Assembly: GCA_002705995.1 (NCBI GenBank)
Contig: PAJI01000012.1
Location: forward strand, 117,988 to 152,365
Source of the DNA: Crocinitomicaceae bacterium
Lineage (GTDB): Bacteria > Bacteroidota > Bacteroidia > Flavobacteriales_G > Salibacteraceae
DNA: 34,378 nucleotides
Direction of reading: 5' to 3'
Shown in pieces: positions 47-30,673 of the stretch. Under the pieces are notes generated by a model, which was given only the letters and a program-made list of their open reading frames with translations, was not told where the DNA came from and made no database searches. Each line of letters begins with the position of its first letter. The first letter of the stretch is position 1. The position numbers and the translations under genes are program-made.

Positions 47-1654
47 ATGCAGAACTTCCGCATTCTACTCTTGCTTTTTGCTGTCTTGTCTATCAGTTGT
101 AGAAAAGAGCTCGAAAACCCTTCTTGGGATGTCGATGCACTTATTCCTATAACTTACACAGATTTAACATTGTTTGATGTTTTGGAAGACTCTCTGACTT
201 CCACGGATGAAAACGGACAAGTGTCTTTAAGCTATTCAGAAAGATTCATTGAATATAAGCTAGACTCGTTATTTACAATTCCCGATACAACAACAATAGA
301 ATCTTTTTCACTTCCAATAGGATCTATTTCTGCAGCACCGGGACAAACCATATATGCAGACACTCAAGAAACTGTTTATGATTTAGAAGATATTGCATTA
401 AAATATGCCATTATTCAATCCGGTGAAATTGAAGTCACTTTATTGAATTCCATTGAAGAAGAAACCATTCTCAATTATTCATTGCCCAGTGCTACGCTTA
501 ACGGAATACCTTTTAACATTATAGATACGGTTCCTGCTGCTTCATCCAGTTCAACTACTACCATTACTAAAACATATGATATTTCGGGTTATACTATTGA
601 CTTTACCGGACTAAGCGGAAATAGCTACAACACACTTGTATCGGCTTACAACGTATCTGTTTCACCTGCTGGAAATACTGTTGTGATTAGTGCAGGTGAT
701 TATTTTCAAATTGAGATCAATTACAAGAGCATTGTACCTTTTTATGCAAAGGGTTACTTTGGAAACAGATCCATCACTGTTGGACCAGACTCTACTGCAT
801 TAGGGCTATTTTACAACATAAGATCAGGGACAATAGACCTTACTGATGCCACATTGGAATTTACCATTGAAAATGAAATTGGAGCTGATTTTTCAGCACA
901 AATAACAGAATTGACTGCATATAAAAACACGTCAACGCCAACCGTTTCTTTAGATCATTACATCACCAGCTCAACTGTAAATCTTACACGGGCTGAAGAA
1001 ACCATCCCAGAGCAGGCTTTCGCTCCAAGAAGCACTACTGCTGATGTAACCTCTGACAATTCCAACATCACAGAATTCATAAGCATTTTCCCAGATGGTG
1101 TTCGTTACCAAATTGACTTCCAGGTCAATCCATTGGGAAATCTCTCAGGAGGGAACGATTTCATTTTTTACAATACTGGAATTACTTTATCCGGAGACAT
1201 TACCATTCCTTTACGCTTTAAAGCCAACAATGTTGTTCTAGTTGACACTACTGATTTTGAACTGGATGATGATGCCCGAAAAGAAACAAATAAGATCAAC
1301 GGAGGGACATTGTGGCTACGTGCAGAAAATGATTATCCTATGGCCGCTCAAATTCAATTGGTATTACTAGACTCAAACACCAATTCGATACTCGACACTT
1401 TAGTAACATCTCCACACACTATAGAAGCTGCTATTGTTGGATCTAATGGAAGAACAGAACAACCGGCCATAAGCAGAGTTGCTATTCCGGTTACACCTGC
1501 TAAAATTGATCATCTTTATAATGCAACAAGTATTATTGTTATCGCTCAAATGAATACCTATGACGCATCAGCGGTAACTATTTATGAAGATTATAAATTA
1601 AGAGCCAAACTGATTGGCGATTTTGACTATCGTATAGAGATCGATGAAAATTAA
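47..1654 (+). CDS. Large hypothetical outer-envelope lipoprotein
   Basis: A 535-residue protein. Residues 1-17 form a lipoprotein signal peptide (hydrophobic LLLLFAVL core, then SIS-C with the lipidated cysteine at 18). The mature start CRKELE is rich in charged residues. The rest looks beta-rich and Thr/Ser/Asp-rich, with no catalytic motif I recognise. I chose ATG 47 over an in-frame TTG at 20 because it starts the signal peptide cleanly and lies 4 nt after a TAnnTTT-like promoter element. The stop overlaps the start of the next gene (a DUF5723 barrel) by 11 bp, so the two are translationally coupled. I recall similar lipoproteins opening with a 'WDVD...P' motif in other Bacteroidota, but the function is unknown. 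The inferred role is a surface or periplasmic partner of the downstream barrel. Confidence 0.8.
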   Translation: MQNFRILLLLFAVLSISCRKELENPSWDVDALIPITYTDLTLFDVLEDSLTSTDENGQVSLSYSERFIEYKLDSLFTIPDTTTIESFSLPIGSISAAPGQTIYADTQETVYDLEDIALKYAIIQSGEIEVTLLNSIEEETILNYSLPSATLNGIPFNIIDTVPAASSSSTTTITKTYDISGYTIDFTGLSGNSYNTLVSAYNVSVSPAGNTVVISAGDYFQIEINYKSIVPFYAKGYFGNRSITVGPDSTALGLFYNIRSGTIDLTDATLEFTIENEIGADFSAQITELTAYKNTSTPTVSLDHYITSSTVNLTRAEETIPEQAFAPRSTTADVTSDNSNITEFISIFPDGVRYQIDFQVNPLGNLSGGNDFIFYNTGITLSGDITIPLRFKANNVVLVDTTDFELDDDARKETNKINGGTLWLRAENDYPMAAQIQLVLLDSNTNSILDTLVTSPHTIEAAIVGSNGRTEQPAISRVAIPVTPAKIDHLYNATSIIVIAQMNTYDASAVTIYEDYKLRAKLIGDFDYRIEIDEN

Positions 1655-2912
1655 ATTATTCCTACTCTATTTCTTATTTTTCAGCTCTGCCGCATTTGCA
1701 CAGCAATATTCTATGCGAGAAATGCTTCTCGACACGAACAGGGCTGCTGTTGGCATTCACAGCAATTTTAGTGCTAACAGCTCTGTAATTACCAATCGTT
1801 TTTTCTTTAAGCTATTTTCAGGAGGACATATTTCAGATAGCGACATTGATAAAATGACAAATCGCGGCAACATCATCAACAACCTCGGTTTTGAATTCAA
1901 CACTTCCATACACGCAGCATTTGATATTAATCACTTGTTGGGTAAACCAACTGATAGTTTACAACTTTTCTTTCGCCTTTCTGATCGGCAATTTGCTAAT
2001 GCAAGACTAAGTGATGACATGGTTCAATTTGTACTTAATGGGAACAAACAGTATGCAGGTGAAGAAGCCAACTTTGACCATTTCAATCTTCAATTTGTTC
2101 GCTTTCAGCAGTTACAATTGGGCTTAATGCATCAACTGAAATCAGGTCATCAATATGGCTTTGCTGTATCTGCAATTAACGGTGAACAAAACCTCATTAT
2201 GCAAACTGACCGGTTTCGAGTTTTCACCGAAATTGACGGAAACTCCATATCGGCCTCAACAAATGACCTTGAAATCTATCAAACAGACACCAACAACACG
2301 GGCTTTGGTAAAACAAATGGTTTGGGAGCAACTATTGATTTATTCTACAGGCATCAGTTAAAATCAAAGAAAGAAGGTAGAAAAGCCTATCTCGAATTTG
2401 AAGTGCAAGACTTAGGTTTTGTACAATGGAACAATCAAAGTATTCATTATGACATTGATACGACCTATGTTTTTGAGGGAATTTACATTGAAGATCTTTT
2501 TGATTTAAATGACAGCATTTTAAGCGCTTCTAATCCAGATACTATTATTGATGACTTTAAAGGTGATGCAAAAAGAGAAAGCTACACTTATTGGTTTCCC
2601 GTAAAACTAATGGCGCAGTTTCATCTTGAAAAAGACAATGGATGGTTTTACACCATTGGTGGAATGTATCGTCTGCGGGCAAATATGCTTCCATATATCT
2701 ACGGACAATACGGAAAGCAAATCAATGAACACATAAGACTTGCCGGAACATTAGGAGCCGGAGGCTACGGAACATTCAACATTGGTGCAGAGGCACAGTT
2801 CAACTGGCCTTGGTTAGAGATTGCTCTAGCCAGCAATAATTTGGAAGGACTTGCTTTACCCATGTATTTTGGCGGAACAAATTTGTATTTATCTTTAAGA
2901 AAACGTTTTTGA
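1644..2912 (+). CDS. DUF5723-family outer-membrane beta-barrel protein
   Basis: A 422-residue protein. An Sec signal peptide covers about residues 1-19 (cleavage after AAFA, before QQYS). The body has alternating hydrophobic/aromatic strands typical of a transmembrane beta-barrel, and the protein ends in Phe, as expected for a BAM substrate. The 'DLGFxxW' stretch about two thirds of the way along and the overall pattern match the Bacteroidota DUF5723 family, whose function is not established. It overlaps the preceding lipoprotein gene by 11 bp and is followed after 5 nt by a T9SS cargo gene, so all three probably share one mRNA. The family call rests on memory of the pattern. The barrel and signal-peptide reading is firmer. 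Confidence 0.75.
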   Translation: MKIKLFLLYFLFFSSAAFAQQYSMREMLLDTNRAAVGIHSNFSANSSVITNRFFFKLFSGGHISDSDIDKMTNRGNIINNLGFEFNTSIHAAFDINHLLGKPTDSLQLFFRLSDRQFANARLSDDMVQFVLNGNKQYAGEEANFDHFNLQFVRFQQLQLGLMHQLKSGHQYGFAVSAINGEQNLIMQTDRFRVFTEIDGNSISASTNDLEIYQTDTNNTGFGKTNGLGATIDLFYRHQLKSKKEGRKAYLEFEVQDLGFVQWNNQSIHYDIDTTYVFEGIYIEDLFDLNDSILSASNPDTIIDDFKGDAKRESYTYWFPVKLMAQFHLEKDNGWFYTIGGMYRLRANMLPYIYGQYGKQINEHIRLAGTLGAGGYGTFNIGAEAQFNWPWLEIALASNNLEGLALPMYFGGTNLYLSLRKRF

Positions 2913-2917
2913 CCTCA

Positions 2918-4414
2918 ATGAAGTTATTCCTCAACATACTATTGCTTTTTGCCGTTTCTTTTTGTTTCGGTCAAAATATTGATGACACTACCTTCATTAA
3001 AATATACAGTGGAGAAGATTATGATTATGCCGAAGACCTTATTTTAACTTCTGATTCTCATTTACTGGTTGTAGGGTCTTCCAGTTCTTTTTCTGAAAAC
3101 AATTCTTCTATTCTATTGGTAAAGATGGATTTATTCGGAAATGTTATTTGGGTAAATACTTATTCAGGTGATGGAGTGGCCGAAGGTTCTGCTATAATTG
3201 AGTGCGAAGATGGTAATTACCTTATGACAGGTATTTCAGATGATAATGAGCACAATGACTATGACTTAATTGCCCTTAAAACGGATACTGCAGGTAACCT
3301 CATCTGGACAAAACGCTATGGAATGAATGGCTGGGATGTTATTAATGATGTGGTTGAAACAGATTCCGGTAATTATGTTTTCTGTGGACAGTCATATTAT
3401 TACAATAGTCCTGCCGGATGGCTGGTCAGCTACAATGAACTGACTGATAATTTCGATCAAAGTTTATTGATTGAACCTGACTATGAAACAGTGTTCAATG
3501 CACTTACAAAAGATACGAACAACAATATTTATGTTGCAGGCAGTAGCATTAACCCTAGCCTACAAAAAGACAGGGATGTTTTTCTCCAAAAATATACCTA
3601 CTCACTTGATTCTATCTGGTCTGTTTATGGAGGGAGAGCATTAGAAGAAGCTACAGGTGGAGTTACGATCAGAAAAGATGGTAATGTGGTTTTGGTTGGA
3701 AAAAGCTATAATCAATATGAGGAAGAAAATGACCCTGCCATATTTATAGTAGATTCGGCTAGTGGTCAGTTAAACTTTGCAAACTACTACTCAGTTACAT
3801 TGATTGGCATGTTAAATGATGTGATTGCTACTGCTGATTCACACAAAACTGCAGCAATAGGAACCTCTTACAACTCAGGTACAAAATATGACGCCTTGTT
3901 TGTTACTTCAAACGAATATGGCCAATTTGTGAATGGTACGATCAGAACTAGTCCTGAGTTTGATGATGAATCAAGCAAGGCCATTGTGAGAATTAACAAT
4001 GGATACTACTTGTGTGGAAATTCATTTGGTTGGTCAGTTAACTATAGTGGTTTCTTCCTCATTAAAACTGACAGCATTGGGGAATTGAGTTCTTTAAGTT
4101 ATGAAAACATAGATCTGGACACTTCCTCAACAATAACCCTTCCATTATCCATTGAACAGCACACTACTGTTGTGAATGATGAATTAAGCATTCACCCTAA
4201 TCCTTTAAATCGAGAACAAGCCTTAACAGTTACCCCTCCGGCTGGTGAAATTGTAGCATTAGTAGAACTTTATAACCTAAAGGGACAGCTTATTTCACAA
4301 CACAGCAATCAAAAAACAATTTCTTTTCCTGAGCAGACTCCAACAGGTATTTACATTGTAAAAACCACTCTATCAGATGGATCTATTCACAGGAATAAGC
4401 TTGTTGTTCGATAA
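2918..4414 (+). CDS. Secreted repeat protein with T9SS C-terminal sorting domain
   Basis: A 498-residue exported protein. The signal peptide ends near FCFGQ (about residue 18). Residues about 25-390 hold repeats of roughly 50 residues with the pattern 'DGN..W...YG......D.....DGNY...G.S', suggesting a beta-propeller. Examples are 'LFGNVIWVNTYSGD' and 'TAGNLIWTKRYGMN'. The last 75 residues form a type A T9SS sorting domain: 'IHPNPL', then 'VELYNLKGQLI', then 'TGIYIVK', ending 'KLVVR'. It is therefore expected to cross the outer membrane by T9SS and be surface-attached or released. ATG 2918 is preferred over TTG 2909 because it begins the signal peptide directly. The ligand or substrate is unknown. 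It ends 4 bp from the convergent PorE-like gene with no terminator visible between. Confidence 0.85.
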   Translation: MKLFLNILLLFAVSFCFGQNIDDTTFIKIYSGEDYDYAEDLILTSDSHLLVVGSSSSFSENNSSILLVKMDLFGNVIWVNTYSGDGVAEGSAIIECEDGNYLMTGISDDNEHNDYDLIALKTDTAGNLIWTKRYGMNGWDVINDVVETDSGNYVFCGQSYYYNSPAGWLVSYNELTDNFDQSLLIEPDYETVFNALTKDTNNNIYVAGSSINPSLQKDRDVFLQKYTYSLDSIWSVYGGRALEEATGGVTIRKDGNVVLVGKSYNQYEEENDPAIFIVDSASGQLNFANYYSVTLIGMLNDVIATADSHKTAAIGTSYNSGTKYDALFVTSNEYGQFVNGTIRTSPEFDDESSKAIVRINNGYYLCGNSFGWSVNYSGFFLIKTDSIGELSSLSYENIDLDTSSTITLPLSIEQHTTVVNDELSIHPNPLNREQALTVTPPAGEIVALVELYNLKGQLISQHSNQKTISFPEQTPTGIYIVKTTLSDGSIHRNKLVVR

Positions 4415-4418
4415 TAAA

Positions 4419-6347
4419 TTAATGATTGGTTGATAAAACTTTGAATTCAGTTCTTCTGTTCTTAGCACGACCAGCTTCGGTATCATTTGAAGCGATTGGC
4501 ATTGACGAACTGTATCCTTTATAGGTTAAGCGTTCTGCTGAGACACCATGATTCACCAAGTAATCATACACCGATTTTGCACGATTCTCTGAAAGTTGTT
4601 GGTTAGATTCATTACTACCTACATTATCGGTATGACCACCTATTTCAATACTCACAGAAGTATTCTGGGATAGAAATGACACTAATTTATTCAGTTCAAC
4701 CTTAGAAGTTGATTTCAATTCAAACTTAGAAGTTTCAAAAAACACATTTTTTAACACCACACTCTTCCCTGCTTTAATTTGATCGAGTGGAATATCAAAA
4801 AACCTAGCTTCTGCTTTCTCTCCTTTAAAATTGAAATTTTCGGAAAAGAACAAATACCCTTTAGACGATGCATTGAAAGCATACTCATCTTCTGTTGGAA
4901 CAACAACTATAAATTCTCCTGTAACCGGATCTGAAGTTGCTTCTATTAATTTCTCTCCTGTTTCAACAGACAAAATTTCGAAATGAGCTGATAATGGTTG
5001 CTTGGTTTCGCTATCGTATACTTTTCCTTTTGCATAAACAACCGCCTCCGCTCTATCTTCTTCAGGAAGTTCAAATTTGTACAAATCCCATCTTCCAAAA
5101 CCTCCATCCATATCACTTGAATAATATGCCGTTTTACCTGAAGCGGTAACGATTAAACTTACCTCACTTCCTCCCGTATTAATCGGGTATCCTAAATTGA
5201 CTGGCTCTCCCCAGTTTCCTTGGGCATCAATATCCACATAATACAAATCACTTAGTCCCATTCCTGGCAAGCCATCAGAAGAAAAATAAAACCTTTTTCC
5301 ATTGGGGTGGATAAAAGGAGATTGGTCATTTCCTTTGGTATTAATCGGTACTAATTTTGGCTCAGACCATTGTCCGTTATCGCCTATTTTAGTAACATAA
5401 ATGTCTGTTTTACCTTTTCCGCCTTTACGATTACTCGCAAAGTACAATGTTCTTCCATCTGCACTGAATGAAGGTTGTGATTCCCACCAATGAGAATTAA
5501 TAGGACTTCCTAAATTTATCGGATTAACCCAGCTATCGCCCTGTTTTCTGGCTAAAAACAAATCACACGAACCAAAAGAACCGGGCTTGTCACAAGAAGT
5601 AAAAAACAAGTAACGCCCATCTGCAGAAATACACGAAGCTCCTTCATTAAACTCACTGTTAACTCTTTTACCCAAATTCTTGGCTTGAGACCAATTTCCA
5701 TCGGTTTGCAAATAACTGATGTAAAAATCTTCGTCTTCCATCTCAAAACCACCGGGGTGAATTTTTCGCTCTTTACGGGTAAAATACAATGTTTGCTCGT
5801 CTGTTGTTATCGTAGGGGAATGTTCGTAAAAGCCAGAGTTCACGCCACCTCCTAGATTAATGGGATCAAAGGGTTTAGGATTAGCCATTAACTTTTTACG
5901 AACTTCAACAGCAGCCAACATGTCTTCTACCTGACGAATCGATTCTTGGCGATTATCCGGAAACTCTAAAAACTTGTTTAGATAGTTTTTAGTTTCTTCC
6001 AATTGATTGAGACTTAGTGAAGCTTTTCCTATATTGTAATAGTTTGACGGAAACTCATTCGGTGTAATTTGAATCGCTTTTTTCAGGAAAACAATTGCAC
6101 TATCAGGAGCACTTAACTCCATATACATTTCTCCTTTTAACATATAAGCATCTACAAACAGGCTATCTTCTGCTAGTGCTTCGTCTACTTTTGCAAATGC
6201 TTGGTCAAAATAGCGCAAGTTGTAATAGCTAATGGCTTCTTCAAGCAACTTCTTGGCTTTACGAGAATCTGTTTTAAAATCAACTTTCTGTGCCTTGCAG
6301 CTTACAATAACGATCAATAGTGCAATAAGAGTGACCAATTTCTTCAT
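4419..6347 (-). CDS. PorE-like lipoprotein: TPR, PD40 propeller, CRD and OmpA domains
   Basis: A 642-residue lipoprotein with Cys17 after a hydrophobic leader (VIVSC). Domains in order: TPR repeats (about 24-140); a six-bladed PD40/WD40-like propeller (about 155-425) with recurring 'SADGRxLYFxS' strands; a carboxypeptidase-regulatory-like fold (about 438-505); and an OmpA peptidoglycan-binding domain (about 530-640) with 'GHTDNVGS', 'LSENRAKSV' and 'NRRTEF'. This is the architecture of PorE of Porphyromonas gingivalis, which anchors the T9SS core to peptidoglycan. Many Bacteroidota also carry paralogues of this shape paired with PorP/SprF barrels, but no PorP-like gene lies beside this one. 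ATG 6347 is chosen because the upstream extension would spoil the signal peptide. It lies 76 nt downstream of queE on the same strand. Confidence 0.85.
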   Translation of the reverse strand: MKKLVTLIALLIVIVSCKAQKVDFKTDSRKAKKLLEEAISYYNLRYFDQAFAKVDEALAEDSLFVDAYMLKGEMYMELSAPDSAIVFLKKAIQITPNEFPSNYYNIGKASLSLNQLEETKNYLNKFLEFPDNRQESIRQVEDMLAAVEVRKKLMANPKPFDPINLGGGVNSGFYEHSPTITTDEQTLYFTRKERKIHPGGFEMEDEDFYISYLQTDGNWSQAKNLGKRVNSEFNEGASCISADGRYLFFTSCDKPGSFGSCDLFLARKQGDSWVNPINLGSPINSHWWESQPSFSADGRTLYFASNRKGGKGKTDIYVTKIGDNGQWSEPKLVPINTKGNDQSPFIHPNGKRFYFSSDGLPGMGLSDLYYVDIDAQGNWGEPVNLGYPINTGGSEVSLIVTASGKTAYYSSDMDGGFGRWDLYKFELPEEDRAEAVVYAKGKVYDSETKQPLSAHFEILSVETGEKLIEATSDPVTGEFIVVVPTEDEYAFNASSKGYLFFSENFNFKGEKAEARFFDIPLDQIKAGKSVVLKNVFFETSKFELKSTSKVELNKLVSFLSQNTSVSIEIGGHTDNVGSNESNQQLSENRAKSVYDYLVNHGVSAERLTYKGYSSSMPIASNDTEAGRAKNRRTEFKVLSTNH

Positions 6348-6423
6348 ACAATCAGCTTGAAACAATAAGAGCTTTGTGTTGTAAAGCTAAGTTTTATCCA
6401 AATATTTTTGTGGTAAAATGCAA

Positions 6424-7168: not shown

Positions 7169-7492
7169 ATGAAAAGAATTAAAAAGTTTGACCCCGTAAA
7201 AATGGGACTAGTGTATGGTGCCATCTGTGCAATTATGGGACTTGTAATAGGGATTCCTTACGCATTAATTTTAAGTGCTATAGGCGGCTTTGCTGGAGGT
7301 TCAGAATTTGCTGCAATGGGAGCTATGTCTGGTATGATGATCATTTTTTTACCCATCTTCTATGGAATTTTCGGTTTTATCTTTGGAATAATAGGAGCCT
7401 TTGTGTACAACCTTGTTGCTAGATGGACTGGAGGAATTGCTCTAGAAATTGTAGACGAAAAAGAAGTAGATAATCGCCCTACACTGGATTAA
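7169..7492 (+). CDS. Small integral membrane protein of unknown function
   Basis: A 107-residue protein with a basic N-terminus (MKRIKKFDPVKM) and two or three hydrophobic segments (about 12-42 and 53-84). The first segment holds the Gly/Ala-rich 'AIGGFAGGSEFAAMGAMSG' region. The conserved-looking end 'GAFVYNLVARWTGGIALEI' recalls small membrane proteins sometimes annotated under DUF3566, but I am not certain of the family. The acidic C-terminal tail is probably cytoplasmic. It is divergent from queE, and its last 14 bp overlap the convergent K+ channel gene. A TATCTTTT sequence at 7131-7138, 30 nt before the ATG, may be its promoter. Confidence 0.7.
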   Translation: MKRIKKFDPVKMGLVYGAICAIMGLVIGIPYALILSAIGGFAGGSEFAAMGAMSGMMIIFLPIFYGIFGFIFGIIGAFVYNLVARWTGGIALEIVDEKEVDNRPTLD

Positions 7493-8417
7493 GTTCACAT
7501 TTTACGTAGTCTCCAATATGGTCATTTCGGAGGTCTATACTTCCATCTTCATTGGGGCCAAAGTTTCTGACAAATTTGGCCCCAATTATAAACTCATCAT
7601 TTAGAATATATGAATGCCTTTTGTGGATTAACTGACCAAACCCTTCATCAAAAGCTCTGAATAAAACCAATACTTCGCCACTCATTGCTTCAATTGCTGA
7701 CGGACTCAACCCATAAAAAGGACTTTCTTCATCAATGGGGTGCACAATTGTCCAACTTAGAGGAAGGAAATGAATTCTGCTGGTTTCTAACTTCAACCGA
7801 AAATACTTCAACGACCACCCGTGTTGATCTTTGGTTCTCATGGCCAGCATCACATTTACAGAAAGATCCATTAATGCATTAGACCTTCCGTTACTCACCC
7901 TAAACATCAATGCATTTTGTTGATCTTTATAAGGAGCTAAAATCATTTTCTCACTGAATAAAAAACGCGGCTTTGGCCTAGAGAATCGCCCATAAATCAA
8001 ACCTGTTGCAACACTAAACATAAAAAAACCCATCATTGCTTCCAGTGCAGCAACCATACTGGCTCCATTATCTTTGGGAGCTAATATTCCATAACCTACA
8101 GTGGTACACGTTTGTGTTGAAAAAAAGAAAGCCTGCACAAAATTATCCCAGTCACTAACACTTTTTTCAACCGTTAATTGCTCTATTCCTATTGACAGGT
8201 AAATGAATGCAAAAATGAGATTAACGAAAAAATAACCTCCTACTAAAACCATCATAAACGGAATCCACTTCATGCCTACCATCAACACATAAGCATCTCT
8301 GAGCGAATAACGTACACCTTTGACACGAACATTAAAAGACCCGTCTTTATTGATTAACCTGCTAAAGTTACCGTCAAAAATTTTCCCAAATCCAGGATCT
8401 CTCACTTCTGTACTCAT
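7479..8417 (-). CDS. Inward-rectifier (KirBac-type) potassium channel
   Basis: A 312-residue two-helix K+ channel of the inner membrane. The order is: a cytoplasmic N-terminal slide-helix region with 'FSRLINKDGSFNV'; TM1 (about 53-80); a pore helix and the selectivity filter TVGYG at 106-110 (preceded by 'STQTCT'); TM2 (about 118-142); 'GRFSRPKPR'; and a cytoplasmic immunoglobulin-like Kir domain to the end ('LSWTIVHPIDEESPFYG' is typical). Length and layout match bacterial Kir channels. ATG 8417 is preferred: the upstream extension looks non-coding and the 'MSTEVRDPGFGK' start fits the family. Its stop codon lies inside the 3' end of the convergent small membrane protein gene, a 14 bp overlap. 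Confidence 0.93.
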   Translation of the reverse strand: MSTEVRDPGFGKIFDGNFSRLINKDGSFNVRVKGVRYSLRDAYVLMVGMKWIPFMMVLVGGYFFVNLIFAFIYLSIGIEQLTVEKSVSDWDNFVQAFFFSTQTCTTVGYGILAPKDNGASMVAALEAMMGFFMFSVATGLIYGRFSRPKPRFLFSEKMILAPYKDQQNALMFRVSNGRSNALMDLSVNVMLAMRTKDQHGWSLKYFRLKLETSRIHFLPLSWTIVHPIDEESPFYGLSPSAIEAMSGEVLVLFRAFDEGFGQLIHKRHSYILNDEFIIGAKFVRNFGPNEDGSIDLRNDHIGDYVKCELNPV

Positions 8418-8471
8418 ACGAATGAATTGCTGATTATTACATTTGTAGGCTTTGCGAAGTAAAAATAAACA

Positions 8472-8501
8472 TTTGCTATCGCTGAAATTTAATTTACTTT
8501 G
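8472..8501 (+). promoter_or_regulatory. Candidate promoter for the DUF2723 gene (TTTG, 18 nt, TTACTTTG)
   Basis: TTTG at 8472-8475 is followed after 18 nt by TTACTTTG (8494-8501). Together they resemble the Bacteroidota -33/-7 pair, with one mismatch in TAnnTTTG. It lies 52 nt before the ATG at 8554 in the divergent gap (8418-8553) with the Kir gene. A second, perfect -7 sequence, TACATTTG, is at 8438-8445, so the choice between them is uncertain. I found no convincing minus-strand promoter for the Kir gene here. Confidence 0.4.
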
Positions 8502-8553
8502 AACCACCAAAATTTTGAGGTGTATCTGCTAGAGAATCTCTAATGTAAAAGGC

Positions 8554-11726: not shown

Positions 11727-14300
11727 ATGAAAAAAGTATTTTTTCTTCTCGCTGTACTCATCCTTTCATCTATTGTTTTTGCTGTTTCTAAATGGCAGAA
11801 TTCACACTTTTCAAAAACAGAAAAGTTTCCTGCTCCATCAGAAACTATTGTGCTCAATAAAGGAGACAAAGAAGAGAAAGAGTGGAAAGAACAACTTGAA
11901 CGAGAGGAGTGGATCAATCGTTTGCACAAAACAGCTCCTGATGCAGATTGGAGAAGTATTGATCAGCAAACTCGCTACATGAATCTTTTGAGAAAAAGTT
12001 CGAATACACGATCAAATATTGACACTCTTGCCAATGGATTTCTTACCGGATTTTGGAAAGAACGAGGGAGTGTTAATCAATCCGGAAGAATTGTTTTTGC
12101 AGACTATGATACTAGTTCTAATGCGATTTATGCCGCATCAGACGGGGGTACAATTTTCAAAGGTTCTTTGAACGGCAGCAACTGGACTCCTATTACTGAT
12201 CATTTTAACATCAGTGGCATTGATTACCTCGCTGTTTTAAATCAAACTTCTAGCCCTCGTATCTTTGTGGCTGCCGGTAAATACTGCTACTTTTCTGATG
12301 ATGACGGAACTACTTGGACAACTAGTACAGGAATTAATGCTGTAACCAGTTGGGGAGATATTCGTAAAGCTGCCGTGCTCAATCAAGACAACGAGAATAT
12401 CTACCTTCTTATACAGGAGTGGGACTATACCAACTGGGAAGAGATTATATCGATCTATTATTCTCAAAACAGGGGAACTTCATTTTCAAAACTGGTATCT
12501 TATTCTACCAACCAAATGGGCAGCATTAATCAGCACGACTTTTGGGCAGACCGCTATCAGGGAAATACACTTTACTACATTCAGCAAGACAGGGTTTTTA
12601 AAGTTCAGGGAAATGTAACTCAACAAATAGGTAGCATAGGAGCTTTAACCAATGACCGGTCAATGATTACAGGTACAAATGTTGGAGGAAATCTTACGCT
12701 TTATGCATACATTGATCAAGACATTTACCAATCGATTAACGGTGCTGCCTCATGGATTCAAAAAGCAAATGTGGCCAGAAATCCTTTCAGACAAAATAGT
12801 TTTGCGGCATCTTATTCAAACGCCAATGCTGTCTTTTTTGGAGGTGTAAATTGTGCCCGTTCGTTAAATGGTTTTTCGAGTTGGGAAGAAGTTAATCAGT
12901 GGTATGACTACTATGGTTCTATTAGCGACAAATTACATGCTGATATTCCTGCGGTTATTCCGTTCTTTGATGAAAATGGCGTTGCTAAAATCTTCATTTG
13001 TACAGACGGAGGGCTTTATATTTCTGATGACAACCTTCAAACAGTTGAAAACCTATCGCTTCATGGTTTAAACTGTAGTCAGTATTATGATGTCTATACC
13101 TACCGTGCTCAACCGCAGTATATCTATGCAGGAGCTCAAGACCAAGGCTTCCAACGCGCTTCACAAGATACAGCTGACATTTTAGGATTTGAACAAACAG
13201 TAAGTGGCGATTATGCGCACATCGTTTCTTCAGATAGCGGGGCTAGTATGTGGTTTGTTTACCCTGGGTTTGCAGCATATAATGACGATGCTACAACCGG
13301 TAACTGGGATGTTTCCGGTGATTTTGACGGCAGAGGCAATTATTGGCTTCCTCCGCTTTGTGAACACCCTACGATTAAATCAAAGGTATACATGGCCGGA
13401 GATGACCCGAATGGAGGAACAGGAGCATTTATCTACGAACTTACAGCTAACCTTTCTGGCAACAATGTTTCTTACAACCAACTACCTGCTGATGTACAAG
13501 CACTAACAGGTGGACAAATTTCTGCATTTACTTATTCACCTCTCGATACTGATTACTGGTATGCATTAATGGATAATGGAACCATGGTTTATTCTACTGA
13601 TAATATGAGTAATTGGAATGTCGGAGGGTTGAACAATGGCCCTGAGGCACATTATTTTCACGGTGCAAGCATATATGCCTCTAAAGCTAAGTTTGGCCGT
13701 GTTATTGCTGCCGGTAGCGGATATAGCAATCCCGGGGTATGGGTAAGTGAAGACCATGGAGTAACCTGGGAACAAATGAATAGCGGTTTGCCGCAAACGT
13801 TAACCTTTATGATTGATGCTACACCTGATGATTCTCTGATTTTTGCTGCTACAGAAGTTGGTCCTTATGTTTTTGTAGCCAAAGATTCTATGTGGTATAG
13901 CATGAGTAGTGATGCTGCCCCCGATCAGCGTTATTGGTCAGTTGAATGGATCAATGCTTCTAAAACGGTTCGGTTCGGTACTTACGGAAGAGGAATCTGG
14001 GATTTTTCTTTTGCTCAGGAAAGCGATACAACAGATACTACATCTGTTAATAACCTATCAGGCTTAAATGAGCAATTTCATGTTTATCCTAATCCTGCTA
14101 AAGACCAATTAACTGTTCAGTCTGAGCAAGCTAAACTTCGCAAAGTTGATATCTATGACATCAACGGAAGAGTGGTTACTCAAATCTACCCTACCGAGAA
14201 TACAACAACCATTAACCTCTCTCACCTTGTAAAGGGTACTTATTTTGTTCATTTACATACGCAAACAGAACATTCTATTCAGAAAATAATCAAACTATAG
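11727..14300 (+). CDS. Exported BNR/Asp-box propeller protein with T9SS sorting domain
   Basis: An 857-residue protein. The signal sequence covers about residues 1-20 (MKKVFFLLAVLILSSIVFA). A charged helical stretch (about 48-90) precedes a long beta-propeller region with Asp-box-like motifs 'SDDDGTTW', 'STDNMSNW' and 'SEDHGVTW', as in sortilin/VPS10-like and BNR 'exo-sialidase-like' proteins. No sialidase catalytic set (Arg triad, Tyr/Glu) is evident, so an enzyme function is not supported. The C-terminal 75 residues are a T9SS type A sorting domain: 'FHVYPNPAKDQL', 'VDIYDINGRVV', 'KGTYFVHL', ending 'KIIKL'. Secretion through T9SS is expected. The gene begins 21 nt after the upstream terminator; I could not identify its promoter. 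The following lipoprotein gene starts 17 nt after its stop. Confidence 0.88.
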   Translation: MKKVFFLLAVLILSSIVFAVSKWQNSHFSKTEKFPAPSETIVLNKGDKEEKEWKEQLEREEWINRLHKTAPDADWRSIDQQTRYMNLLRKSSNTRSNIDTLANGFLTGFWKERGSVNQSGRIVFADYDTSSNAIYAASDGGTIFKGSLNGSNWTPITDHFNISGIDYLAVLNQTSSPRIFVAAGKYCYFSDDDGTTWTTSTGINAVTSWGDIRKAAVLNQDNENIYLLIQEWDYTNWEEIISIYYSQNRGTSFSKLVSYSTNQMGSINQHDFWADRYQGNTLYYIQQDRVFKVQGNVTQQIGSIGALTNDRSMITGTNVGGNLTLYAYIDQDIYQSINGAASWIQKANVARNPFRQNSFAASYSNANAVFFGGVNCARSLNGFSSWEEVNQWYDYYGSISDKLHADIPAVIPFFDENGVAKIFICTDGGLYISDDNLQTVENLSLHGLNCSQYYDVYTYRAQPQYIYAGAQDQGFQRASQDTADILGFEQTVSGDYAHIVSSDSGASMWFVYPGFAAYNDDATTGNWDVSGDFDGRGNYWLPPLCEHPTIKSKVYMAGDDPNGGTGAFIYELTANLSGNNVSYNQLPADVQALTGGQISAFTYSPLDTDYWYALMDNGTMVYSTDNMSNWNVGGLNNGPEAHYFHGASIYASKAKFGRVIAAGSGYSNPGVWVSEDHGVTWEQMNSGLPQTLTFMIDATPDDSLIFAATEVGPYVFVAKDSMWYSMSSDAAPDQRYWSVEWINASKTVRFGTYGRGIWDFSFAQESDTTDTTSVNNLSGLNEQFHVYPNPAKDQLTVQSEQAKLRKVDIYDINGRVVTQIYPTENTTTINLSHLVKGTYFVHLHTQTEHSIQKIIKL

Positions 14301-29269: not shown

Positions 29270-29356
29270 TAGTTCTCGAGTAGATAAAATTAATTTTTCA
29301 GGGATTTTTTGAAGAGACAATGGTATTTTCGAAAAATAAAATTGAAATTCATTAGA

Positions 29357-30673
29357 ATGGCATTAAAAAAGCGCTCAGCTACAATTAACTTCCTGTTTTT
29401 TATTTTTTGCACCATATGCTACAATAACATCATTGCTCAGGATGATTCTTACTTTGATGAAAATTACATCCGTTATGACAACCATGTTTATAACAAAGAC
29501 ATCTACACCGTACAGATTTATCGCTCTGGGTGGGAGAATTCATACCCGGTAATTGAACTTGACGGAACAAGTCAGCTTACGCTTAATTTTGACGACTTAA
29601 GCGGGGAATTAAAGAATTACGGCTACACCTTTATTCATTGCAATTCTAATTGGGAGCCATCCGGGTTAATGCCCATGGAATATATGAGCGGCATGTTAGA
29701 AAACTTTATTCTAGATTATAATTACTCCAGAACTCAACGTCAAAAGTATATTCATTATCAAGTAGAAGTTCCCAACTCAGACGTTCAGCTTACTAAGTCA
29801 GGAAATTATATCATTAAGGTCTATGACATTAACAATGAAAATGCTTTGGTGCTTACGCGTAAATTTTTTGTGGTTGATCAAAAAATCACCATCTCACCAG
29901 ACATCAAACAAGCATCCAAAGTGGCAGACAGGTATTACAAACACGAAGTTGATTTTAGCATTTTCCAAACTGGATTAGAGATCATTAACCCTTACCAAAA
30001 CCTTAAAGTTCAAATTGTCCAGAATCAAGATTGGAAACATCCTATCAAAGGCATTAACCCTACTTTTATTAAAGGAACCGAATACCTCTATGACTACTCG
30101 GAAGGAAATGTTTTTGACGGCATCAATGAATTTCGATTTTTTGACATTAGAACGTTTAGCTATTCTGCTCTGGAGACTGAAAGAGTTGACATATTACAAG
30201 ACACTATTAATGTTTACTTGGATAAAGATGAAGCCAGAGGATATAAAGTATACTTAGATCAACAAGACATCAATGGGAAATACCTTATCCATACGGATGA
30301 GAACAATGCAGAAAGTGACATTGATGCTGACTATGCGCTTGTGCATTTATCACTCCCTTACCCTTACCCTGTAAAAAACGGAGATATCTACCTCTATGGA
30401 GAAATTAGCAATTGGAATTATGATCCGAAATACAAAATGAGATGGAATGAAAAAAAACGTCAATACGAAAACACATTATATGTAAAGCAAGGTTATTACA
30501 ATTACTTATATGCTGTTTTTGAAGACGGAAAAGAACTTCCAAATTTTGCAACAATTGAGGGAACACACGCCCAAACACAAAACGATTACACCATTCTCGT
30601 TTACTATAAAGACCCTACAGACATCTACGAACAACTAATTGGTCTTCAAACGACTAGCTTCCCCTCAAGATAA
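29357..30673 (+). CDS. Type IX secretion system Plug protein (DUF5103)
   Basis: A 438-residue exported protein with a signal peptide ending near NNIIAQ (about residue 28). The N-terminal domain has the DUF5103 pattern: 'IYTVQIYRSGWE', 'LTLNFDDLSGELKNYGYTF', 'HCNSNWEPS', 'YIHYQVEVP', 'SGNYIIKVYD'. The C-terminal part has 'GEISNWNYDPKYKMRWNE'. In Flavobacterium johnsoniae a DUF5103 protein was found as the Plug closing the periplasmic end of the giant SprA translocon of T9SS. Assignment to the Plug follows from that family link. ATG 29357 is chosen over TTG 29309 because it begins the signal peptide. It is divergent from nqrA and followed after 37 nt by apaG. Confidence 0.88.
   Translation: MALKKRSATINFLFFIFCTICYNNIIAQDDSYFDENYIRYDNHVYNKDIYTVQIYRSGWENSYPVIELDGTSQLTLNFDDLSGELKNYGYTFIHCNSNWEPSGLMPMEYMSGMLENFILDYNYSRTQRQKYIHYQVEVPNSDVQLTKSGNYIIKVYDINNENALVLTRKFFVVDQKITISPDIKQASKVADRYYKHEVDFSIFQTGLEIINPYQNLKVQIVQNQDWKHPIKGINPTFIKGTEYLYDYSEGNVFDGINEFRFFDIRTFSYSALETERVDILQDTINVYLDKDEARGYKVYLDQQDINGKYLIHTDENNAESDIDADYALVHLSLPYPYPVKNGDIYLYGEISNWNYDPKYKMRWNEKKRQYENTLYVKQGYYNYLYAVFEDGKELPNFATIEGTHAQTQNDYTILVYYKDPTDIYEQLIGLQTTSFPSR

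Follow-up and report, generated by a model that had tools for sequence, protein, structure and literature searches.

Conserved pairing of a lipoprotein gene with a DUF5723 barrel gene in the Bacteroidota: a candidate two-part outer-membrane complex

Complexes of an outer-membrane barrel with a surface lipoprotein are a hallmark of the Bacteroidota, as stated in an excerpt of one published account (PMC12578637). BamG, a FadL-family barrel (FadL/Toluene_X in the same excerpt), grips the lipoprotein BamH through the lipidated tail of BamH, which lies in a groove, and the tail of BamG is extended and threads through a lateral opening, according to the excerpted text of PMC12611786. The SusC-SusD and BtuB-BtuG pairs likewise consist of an outer-membrane barrel and a lipoprotein encoded by adjacent genes. 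Here, a further pair of this kind was analysed in a 34,378-nucleotide (nt) stretch of DNA (the window) from a Crocinitomicaceae bacterium (assembly GCA_002705995.1, contig PAJI01000012.1, positions 117,988 to 152,365), in which a lipoprotein gene is followed by a gene for a barrel of family DUF5723 (PF18990) and then by a gene for a cargo protein of the type IX secretion system (T9SS).

The reading towards which we lean, with appreciable reserve, is that of a two-part outer-membrane complex in which a surface lipoprotein is docked on a FadL-fold barrel, resembling BamG-BamH in logic; the combination of a FadL-fold barrel, an invariant lipoprotein tail and tightly packed genes fits such a division of labour. 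In a complex of this type, the lipoprotein would probably reach the cell surface and stay attached to the barrel by its conserved, lipidated N-terminal tail, much as BamH is attached to BamG, and the barrel would be a platform on which the lipoprotein docks, not an ordinary solute channel. In fused forms of DUF5723, an OmpA domain would anchor the barrel to the cell wall, and a propeller-type protein exported by the T9SS would join the complex from outside, as a dispensable partner in the window's subfamily. The pair is of wider interest as the barrel, found in 190 of the 198 Bacteroidia genomes sampled, is known only as DUF5723, as its lipoprotein has no Pfam model, and as the pairing suggests a probable partner for 4h3w, an orphan crystal structure.

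Conservation of the gene pair

A preliminary description of this DNA had treated the three genes as one unit, and a neighbourhood survey had been named beforehand as its check, with an unconserved arrangement as the outcome that would speak against it. The lipoprotein-barrel pair proved to be conserved. A scan of one genome per species (84,980 species) with an alignment of the lipoprotein as sole query gave 205 relatives, the best 80 of which were kept, and in 77 of these 80 the next gene matched the barrel profile, which argues that the arrangement is more than chance. When counted from the first start codon of the frame (ATG or other), the gap between the two genes ranged from -29 to +54 nt; 74 barrel genes started within 20 nt and 39 of the 77 overlapped the lipoprotein gene, 21 of them by exactly 4 nt. 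Two of the unpaired loci (L105 and L148) stop at a contig edge.

Of 42 genomes in the window's order, 41 contained the lipoprotein and all 42 contained DUF5723, and a same-strand PF18990 match adjoined 26 of the best 30 lipoprotein places, the window's own included. The remaining places comprise three with a gene of 410-415 amino acids (aa) not listed by PF18990 (L013, L029, L032) and one fragment at a contig edge (L030). The order-level set and the 80 relatives share genomes (L006 and L087, for example) and are therefore not independent. Thirty other DUF5723 genes of the order (L034-L063) were also read from the side of the barrel: a match to the lipoprotein profile lay directly upstream in 26 (E 4e-51 to 7e-4), and a lipoprotein-looking gene that was not scored preceded two more (L040, L043). 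Among the best 29 new DUF5723 loci of the class (L200-L228), the upstream match was clear in 21 and weak in L201; a lipoprotein of about 185 aa replaces the large one in L202 (828-1388, plus strand), L203 and L210, an unscored 441-aa gene precedes DUF5723 in L205, and L214 begins at a contig edge. Across 296 genomes of the phylum, the lipoprotein profile matched 94, and in at least 73 of these a DUF5723 match lay no more than 1.5 kb downstream when judged by coordinates; two genomes unpaired by coordinates (G082, G164) were paired when the loci were read, and 20 of the 21 genomes unpaired by coordinates carried a DUF5723 match somewhere. The next gene matched the barrel profile in 24 of 29 loci read for distant lipoprotein homologues, and in L179 it was an unscored gene of 493 aa. 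These counts indicate that the two genes are mostly adjacent across the phylum and lie apart in some lineages. The proposed unit is genuine, and it extends far beyond the window.

Some observations weigh against the proposed complex. No barrel start was recognisable in the 504 nt after the lipoprotein gene of L096; a different gene precedes DUF5723 in L054 and L056, and an unrelated one in L218; a DUF5723 gene elsewhere (G000:C4:27227, L065) has no adjoining lipoprotein; and four distant lipoprotein homologues (L180, L181, L194, L196) are followed by a gene which by eye is phosphoglycerate kinase-like, not by a barrel. Tree-similarity (mirror-tree) comparison gave a plain r of 0.93-0.97 for lipoprotein and barrel, against which a PorE-like control neighbour reached 0.51 and 0.52 (lipoprotein-barrel 0.95 in the same 19 loci), and the partial correlation was 0.72 given the RarA-like neighbour (30 loci) and 0.62 given a neighbour which we take from its sequence to be KdsA (23 loci). 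Set beside an unrelated neighbour, a 143-aa membrane protein (TM143), the pair had a partial correlation of 0.67 versus 0.50 and 0.47 (28 loci), and one of 0.40 in the 19 loci that also held the cargo gene. In these 19 loci, the lipoprotein-cargo value was -0.01, and barrel-cargo reached 0.64 versus 0.38 for barrel-TM143. The mirror-tree signal for the lipoprotein-barrel pair is thus weak.

The retention of unrelated neighbours (RarA-like in 33 of 63 loci, TM143 in 30 of 63) is what would be expected if adjacency were merely inherited synteny of no functional meaning. However, the lipoprotein-barrel pairing holds almost throughout and reappears where the neighbouring genes differ, and we consider this explanation extremely improbable. 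It is almost certain, in our judgement, that lipoprotein and barrel constitute a functional unit. That they also form a physical complex is very likely, the presumed interface lying between two folds that were each predicted as a single chain.

Predicted folds and the nearest solved precedents

The window barrel matched PF18990 with 77.7 bits (cut-off 26.8). Of 76 barrels of the subfamily, 63 matched this family at E 0.001, and two of the 76 gave weak matches to Nal1_C. At the same threshold, none of the 76 matched a TonB-dependent receptor family or PF03349 (FadL/Toluene_X); the window's genome holds two separate PF03349 genes elsewhere. The single-chain model of the barrel (predicted local distance difference test, pLDDT, 89.3) has a FadL fold: rows for FadL and TodX gave Z 17.5-19.2, with chain 2r4l_B aligned at Z 19.1 over 301 residues (root-mean-square deviation, rmsd, 5.6). 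Chains 9n2d_B, 9hjm_F and 9hiv_F, from entries of the barrel assembly machinery (BAM), scored Z 15.9-17.5, and chains 8gl6_F and 6h3i_F, from T9SS entries, Z 16.9-17.1; the fold rows give entry titles only, and we take the former to be BamG and the latter PorV.

The preliminary description had compared the pair with SusC/D while calling the two unrelated in sequence. The latter holds as far as it was tested, as neither the 76 barrels nor the 79 lipoproteins examined gave such Pfam matches, and the comparison stands as an analogy, not as membership, since the barrel has a FadL fold and matched no TonB-dependent receptor family. A DUF5723 barrel and the lack of a SusD-type match set the pair apart from both SusC-SusD and BtuB-BtuG, and in the window the lipoprotein gene precedes the barrel gene. 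Given the FadL fold, BamG-BamH replaces SusC/D as the nearest solved precedent for a barrel that holds a surface lipoprotein. The two systems would share a FadL-fold barrel anchoring a lipoprotein whose surface position is, in our case, predicted, and they share a phylum-wide spread; BamG, however, is of the FadL/Toluene_X family, which the DUF5723 subfamily does not match. No BAM chain was found at E 10 when the lipoprotein profile was compared with the PDB, and no BAM entry was among the 50 rows listed in the lipoprotein fold search, a result which does not exclude a relation to BamH or to other families that rank low in these listings or do not appear in them.

The lipoprotein was modelled with similar confidence (pLDDT 90.8, predicted template modelling score 0.77, single chain). 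It matched no Pfam family at E 0.1, and none of the 79 lipoproteins had a Pfam match at E 0.001, SusD-type families and PF15414 included. Its fold nevertheless matched 4h3w, a DUF4621 (PF15414) protein, at Z 17.3 (290 of 313 residues, rmsd 6.6), the next of the 50 rows standing at Z 8.0. The link in sequence is slight (profile E 0.34; hhalign E 3e-4, probability 38, C-terminal part only), and the solved chain has 330 residues as against about 518 in the mature protein here. Furthermore, a DUF4621 gene (E 5e-99 to the 4h3w family) lies 30 nt before the DUF5723 gene of L200, which ranked first among the DUF5723 genes sampled from the class, so that two independent routes meet on the same protein. 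As DUF4621 was present in one of 395 class genomes, this adjacency rests on a single genome together with the fold match. Among open-licence PMC papers, none naming the DUF5723 family was found, and nothing relevant on DUF4621, PF15414, PF18990, BDI_1231 or 4H3W.

The combination of a FadL-fold barrel with a lipoprotein, as found in BAM, would also suit an accessory of envelope biogenesis, in effect a second, client-specific version of BamG-BamH that assembles or exports a subset of surface proteins. PorV, which excerpts of PMC12578637 give as the proposed substrate-shuttling protein of the T9SS, shares the FadL fold (Z about 17 to the window barrel, with the chain identity assumed as above). 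The distribution of DUF5723 in the 296 phylum genomes follows that of the SprA translocon, with both present in 177, DUF5723 alone in 2, SprA alone in 52 and neither in 65; DUF5723 thus occurs in 177 of 229 SprA-positive and 2 of 67 SprA-negative genomes. However, 20 of the 67 SprA-negative genomes were listed and 17 of these belong to one family (f20), so that the correlation may largely reflect shared ancestry. In addition, DUF5723 was matched in the control genome of Bacteroides ihuae, and SprA was matched in no control genome, a difference from PorV that argues against such an accessory; the barrel does not seem to need the T9SS. A biogenesis accessory is therefore considered improbable.

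Surface exposure and the role of the barrel

The lipoprotein begins with MQNFRILLLLFAVLSISC, followed by RKELE, its lipobox being judged by eye. Across 79 aligned sequences, C18, W27 and P34 are invariant, and the tail from Cys18 mostly reads C-R/K-K-[DE], with K/R at +3 in 73 and D/E at +4 in 52. In excerpts of PMC5080379, the lipoprotein export signal of Capnocytophaga is given as C-x-K-(D/E)2, with KKEVEEE as a working surface signal in MucG; the +3 and +4 positions of the aligned tails resemble both. The tail also tells in part the other way, as a stricter rule, excerpted from PMC12578637, asks that two of the first six positions be acidic. The window's own protein has two (CRKELEN), but two within six after the cysteine were found in only 31 of the 79 and none at all in 7, so that surface exposure is less sure.

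These tails bear directly on a different arrangement, in which the lipoprotein would stay in the periplasm and plug or brace the barrel from inside, as LptE does in LptD. The 48 sequences of 79 that fall short of the two-in-six rule suit it, whereas the dominance of K/R at +3 and D/E at +4, with its likeness to the MucG signal, does not, and a periplasmic lipoprotein is judged rather unlikely. We instead consider it probable that the lipoprotein is exposed on the outer face of the outer membrane.

The classical role of FadL proteins is that of a channel for hydrophobic molecules, which weighs on the choice between platform and pore. On this view, the barrel could take up a hydrophobic ligand in the manner of FadL, and the lipoprotein would be a capture lid on top of it, following SusCD logic on a TonB-independent barrel. 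The hydrocarbon channels FadL and TodX do provide the best fold rows of the barrel (Z up to 19.2), and the mature lipoprotein has only a short tail before its first strand (residues 20-33, with the cleavage site placed by eye), unlike the extended tail of BamG. However, no clear catabolic operon adjoined the pair in five loci read by eye, a feature not searched for systematically, and the presence of DUF5723 in nearly all sampled Bacteroidia genomes fits a general envelope role better. Uptake is thus regarded as unlikely, though a credible alternative, and on the narrower question of whether the barrel serves as a docking platform rather than a channel the evidence appears evenly balanced.

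A fusion protein in L086 (5665-8328, minus strand) joins a DUF5723 barrel to TSP3 repeats and, at its C-terminus, an OmpA domain; this form fits an anchored platform, and many of the DUF5723 frames longer than 600 aa in the Bacteroidia sample may resemble it. Other DUF5723 genes are followed directly by a gene for a long tetratricopeptide repeat (TPR) protein whose start resembles a signal peptide, in L085 (12507-16850, plus strand), L083, L034, L042, L046, L047 and L049, with weaker matches in L041, L045 and L056; a CHAT caspase-like domain was shown in L085 only, and in all these loci except L056 the DUF5723 gene follows a lipoprotein gene.

In the broader form of the docking reading, such pairs would make up a phylum-wide, undescribed class of two-part outer-membrane complexes that stands alongside SusCD and BamGH. 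Each FadL-fold barrel would serve a single surface lipoprotein and recruit extras that differ between lineages, namely the T9SS propeller, an OmpA tail that binds the wall, or an exported TPR-CHAT protein; we would call this as likely true as false. In its boldest form, the lipoprotein-DUF5723 pair might belong to whatever route takes surface lipoproteins across the outer membrane.

The T9SS cargo gene and the surroundings of the pair

The coordinates of the locus are given in Table 1. The reading frames bear out the 11-bp overlap and the 5-nt spacing from barrel stop to cargo ATG that had been reported for it; equal production of lipoprotein and barrel, suggested there from the overlap, is a conjecture. 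The 140-aa gene upstream of the lipoprotein gene (L064, 11527-11949) lies on the opposite strand, and a TPR-PD40-OmpA gene converges on the cargo gene from downstream, 4 nt separating the two stops, so that the three genes make up the whole co-directional run.

Table 1. Features of the lipoprotein-barrel-cargo locus (positions in the window)
Feature	Position	Strand	Basis
Lipoprotein gene, 535 aa, all-beta, predicted 4h3w (DUF4621) fold, no Pfam family	47..1654 (ATG 47, stop 1654)	+	Reading frame, Pfam search, fold search
N-terminal tail Cys18-Pro34, C-R-K-E...W-D-V-D-A-L-I-P, resembling lipoprotein export signal	98..148	+	Alignment of 79 sequences; putative lipidation from lipobox
11-nt overlap of lipoprotein and barrel genes	1644..1654	+	Reading frames
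DUF5723 (PF18990) outer-membrane barrel gene, 422 aa, FadL fold	1644..2912 (ATG 1644, stop 2912)	+	Pfam, predicted structure
Barrel motif G-N-K-x-x-A-G, residues 133-139, putatively in an outer loop	2040..2060	+	G133 and N134 invariant
T9SS type A cargo gene, 498 aa, weak delta-60/SBBP-type repeat matches; frequent third gene	2918..4414 (ATG 2918, stop 4414)	+	Frame, profiles
T9SS C-terminal sorting domain of cargo, residues 425-498	4190..4411	+	Profile match

The window cargo carries a T9SS sorting signal (TIGR04183, 38.2 bits against a cut-off of 23; PF18962, 24.2 bits, below its cut-off of 27), and SprA is encoded in the same genome (2629.7 bits). A cargo-family gene was found in 58 of the 80 loci, on the same strand in 54 and on the opposite strand in 4. 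Its products are 16-24% identical to the window cargo, and once five partial proteins of the 58 had been left out, the sorting domain was present in 49 of 54 scanned (53 relatives and the window's own). Where 3 kb or more of sequence follows the barrel, the gene was present in 50 of 60 loci and absent from L087 (Salibacter halophilus), L106, L110, L117, L138, L140, L149, L151, L153 and L155. In L128, L140 (labelled Crocinitomicaceae), L141 and L153 its position is occupied by a different gene of comparable length, which by eye looks like a membrane protein, and in loci read the KdsA-like gene (L098, 12856-13671, plus strand, and similar) sits between barrel and cargo. The cargo gene was not seen immediately beside other DUF5723 pairs of the window's order, the exception being a weak match one gene away in L084. 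Hence the lipoprotein and barrel of the original three-gene unit are fixed in the subfamily, while the cargo is frequent but dispensable.

Within 4 kb downstream, the cargo gene was conserved in 48 of the 58 loci that extend that far, and the KdsA-like gene in 21 of 58, the cargo being the most conserved of the neighbours counted; as the cargo was sought by profile and the other neighbours by single sequences, the comparison of these counts, and of those for the RarA-like gene and TM143, favours the cargo. For the cargo alone, inherited synteny may account for these figures. The cargo gene is more aptly called a frequent partner than a client, and its product's being a stable partner of the complex is doubtful.

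The convergent TPR-PD40-OmpA protein (window 4419-6365, minus strand) scored 290.5 of 600 bits as PorE-like and 311.7 of 620 bits as CHU_0125-like, both below the curated cut-off. Other T9SS-related genes in the window encode a plug protein (NF052315, 382 bits; 29309-30673, plus strand) and a second cargo with a Sortilin-Vps10-like repeat region (11727-14300, plus strand), which lies just after a TMEM260-like gene. A homologue of bacterial inward-rectifier potassium channels is encoded at 7479-8510 on the minus strand (PF17655, 59.2 bits; PF01007, 41 bits).

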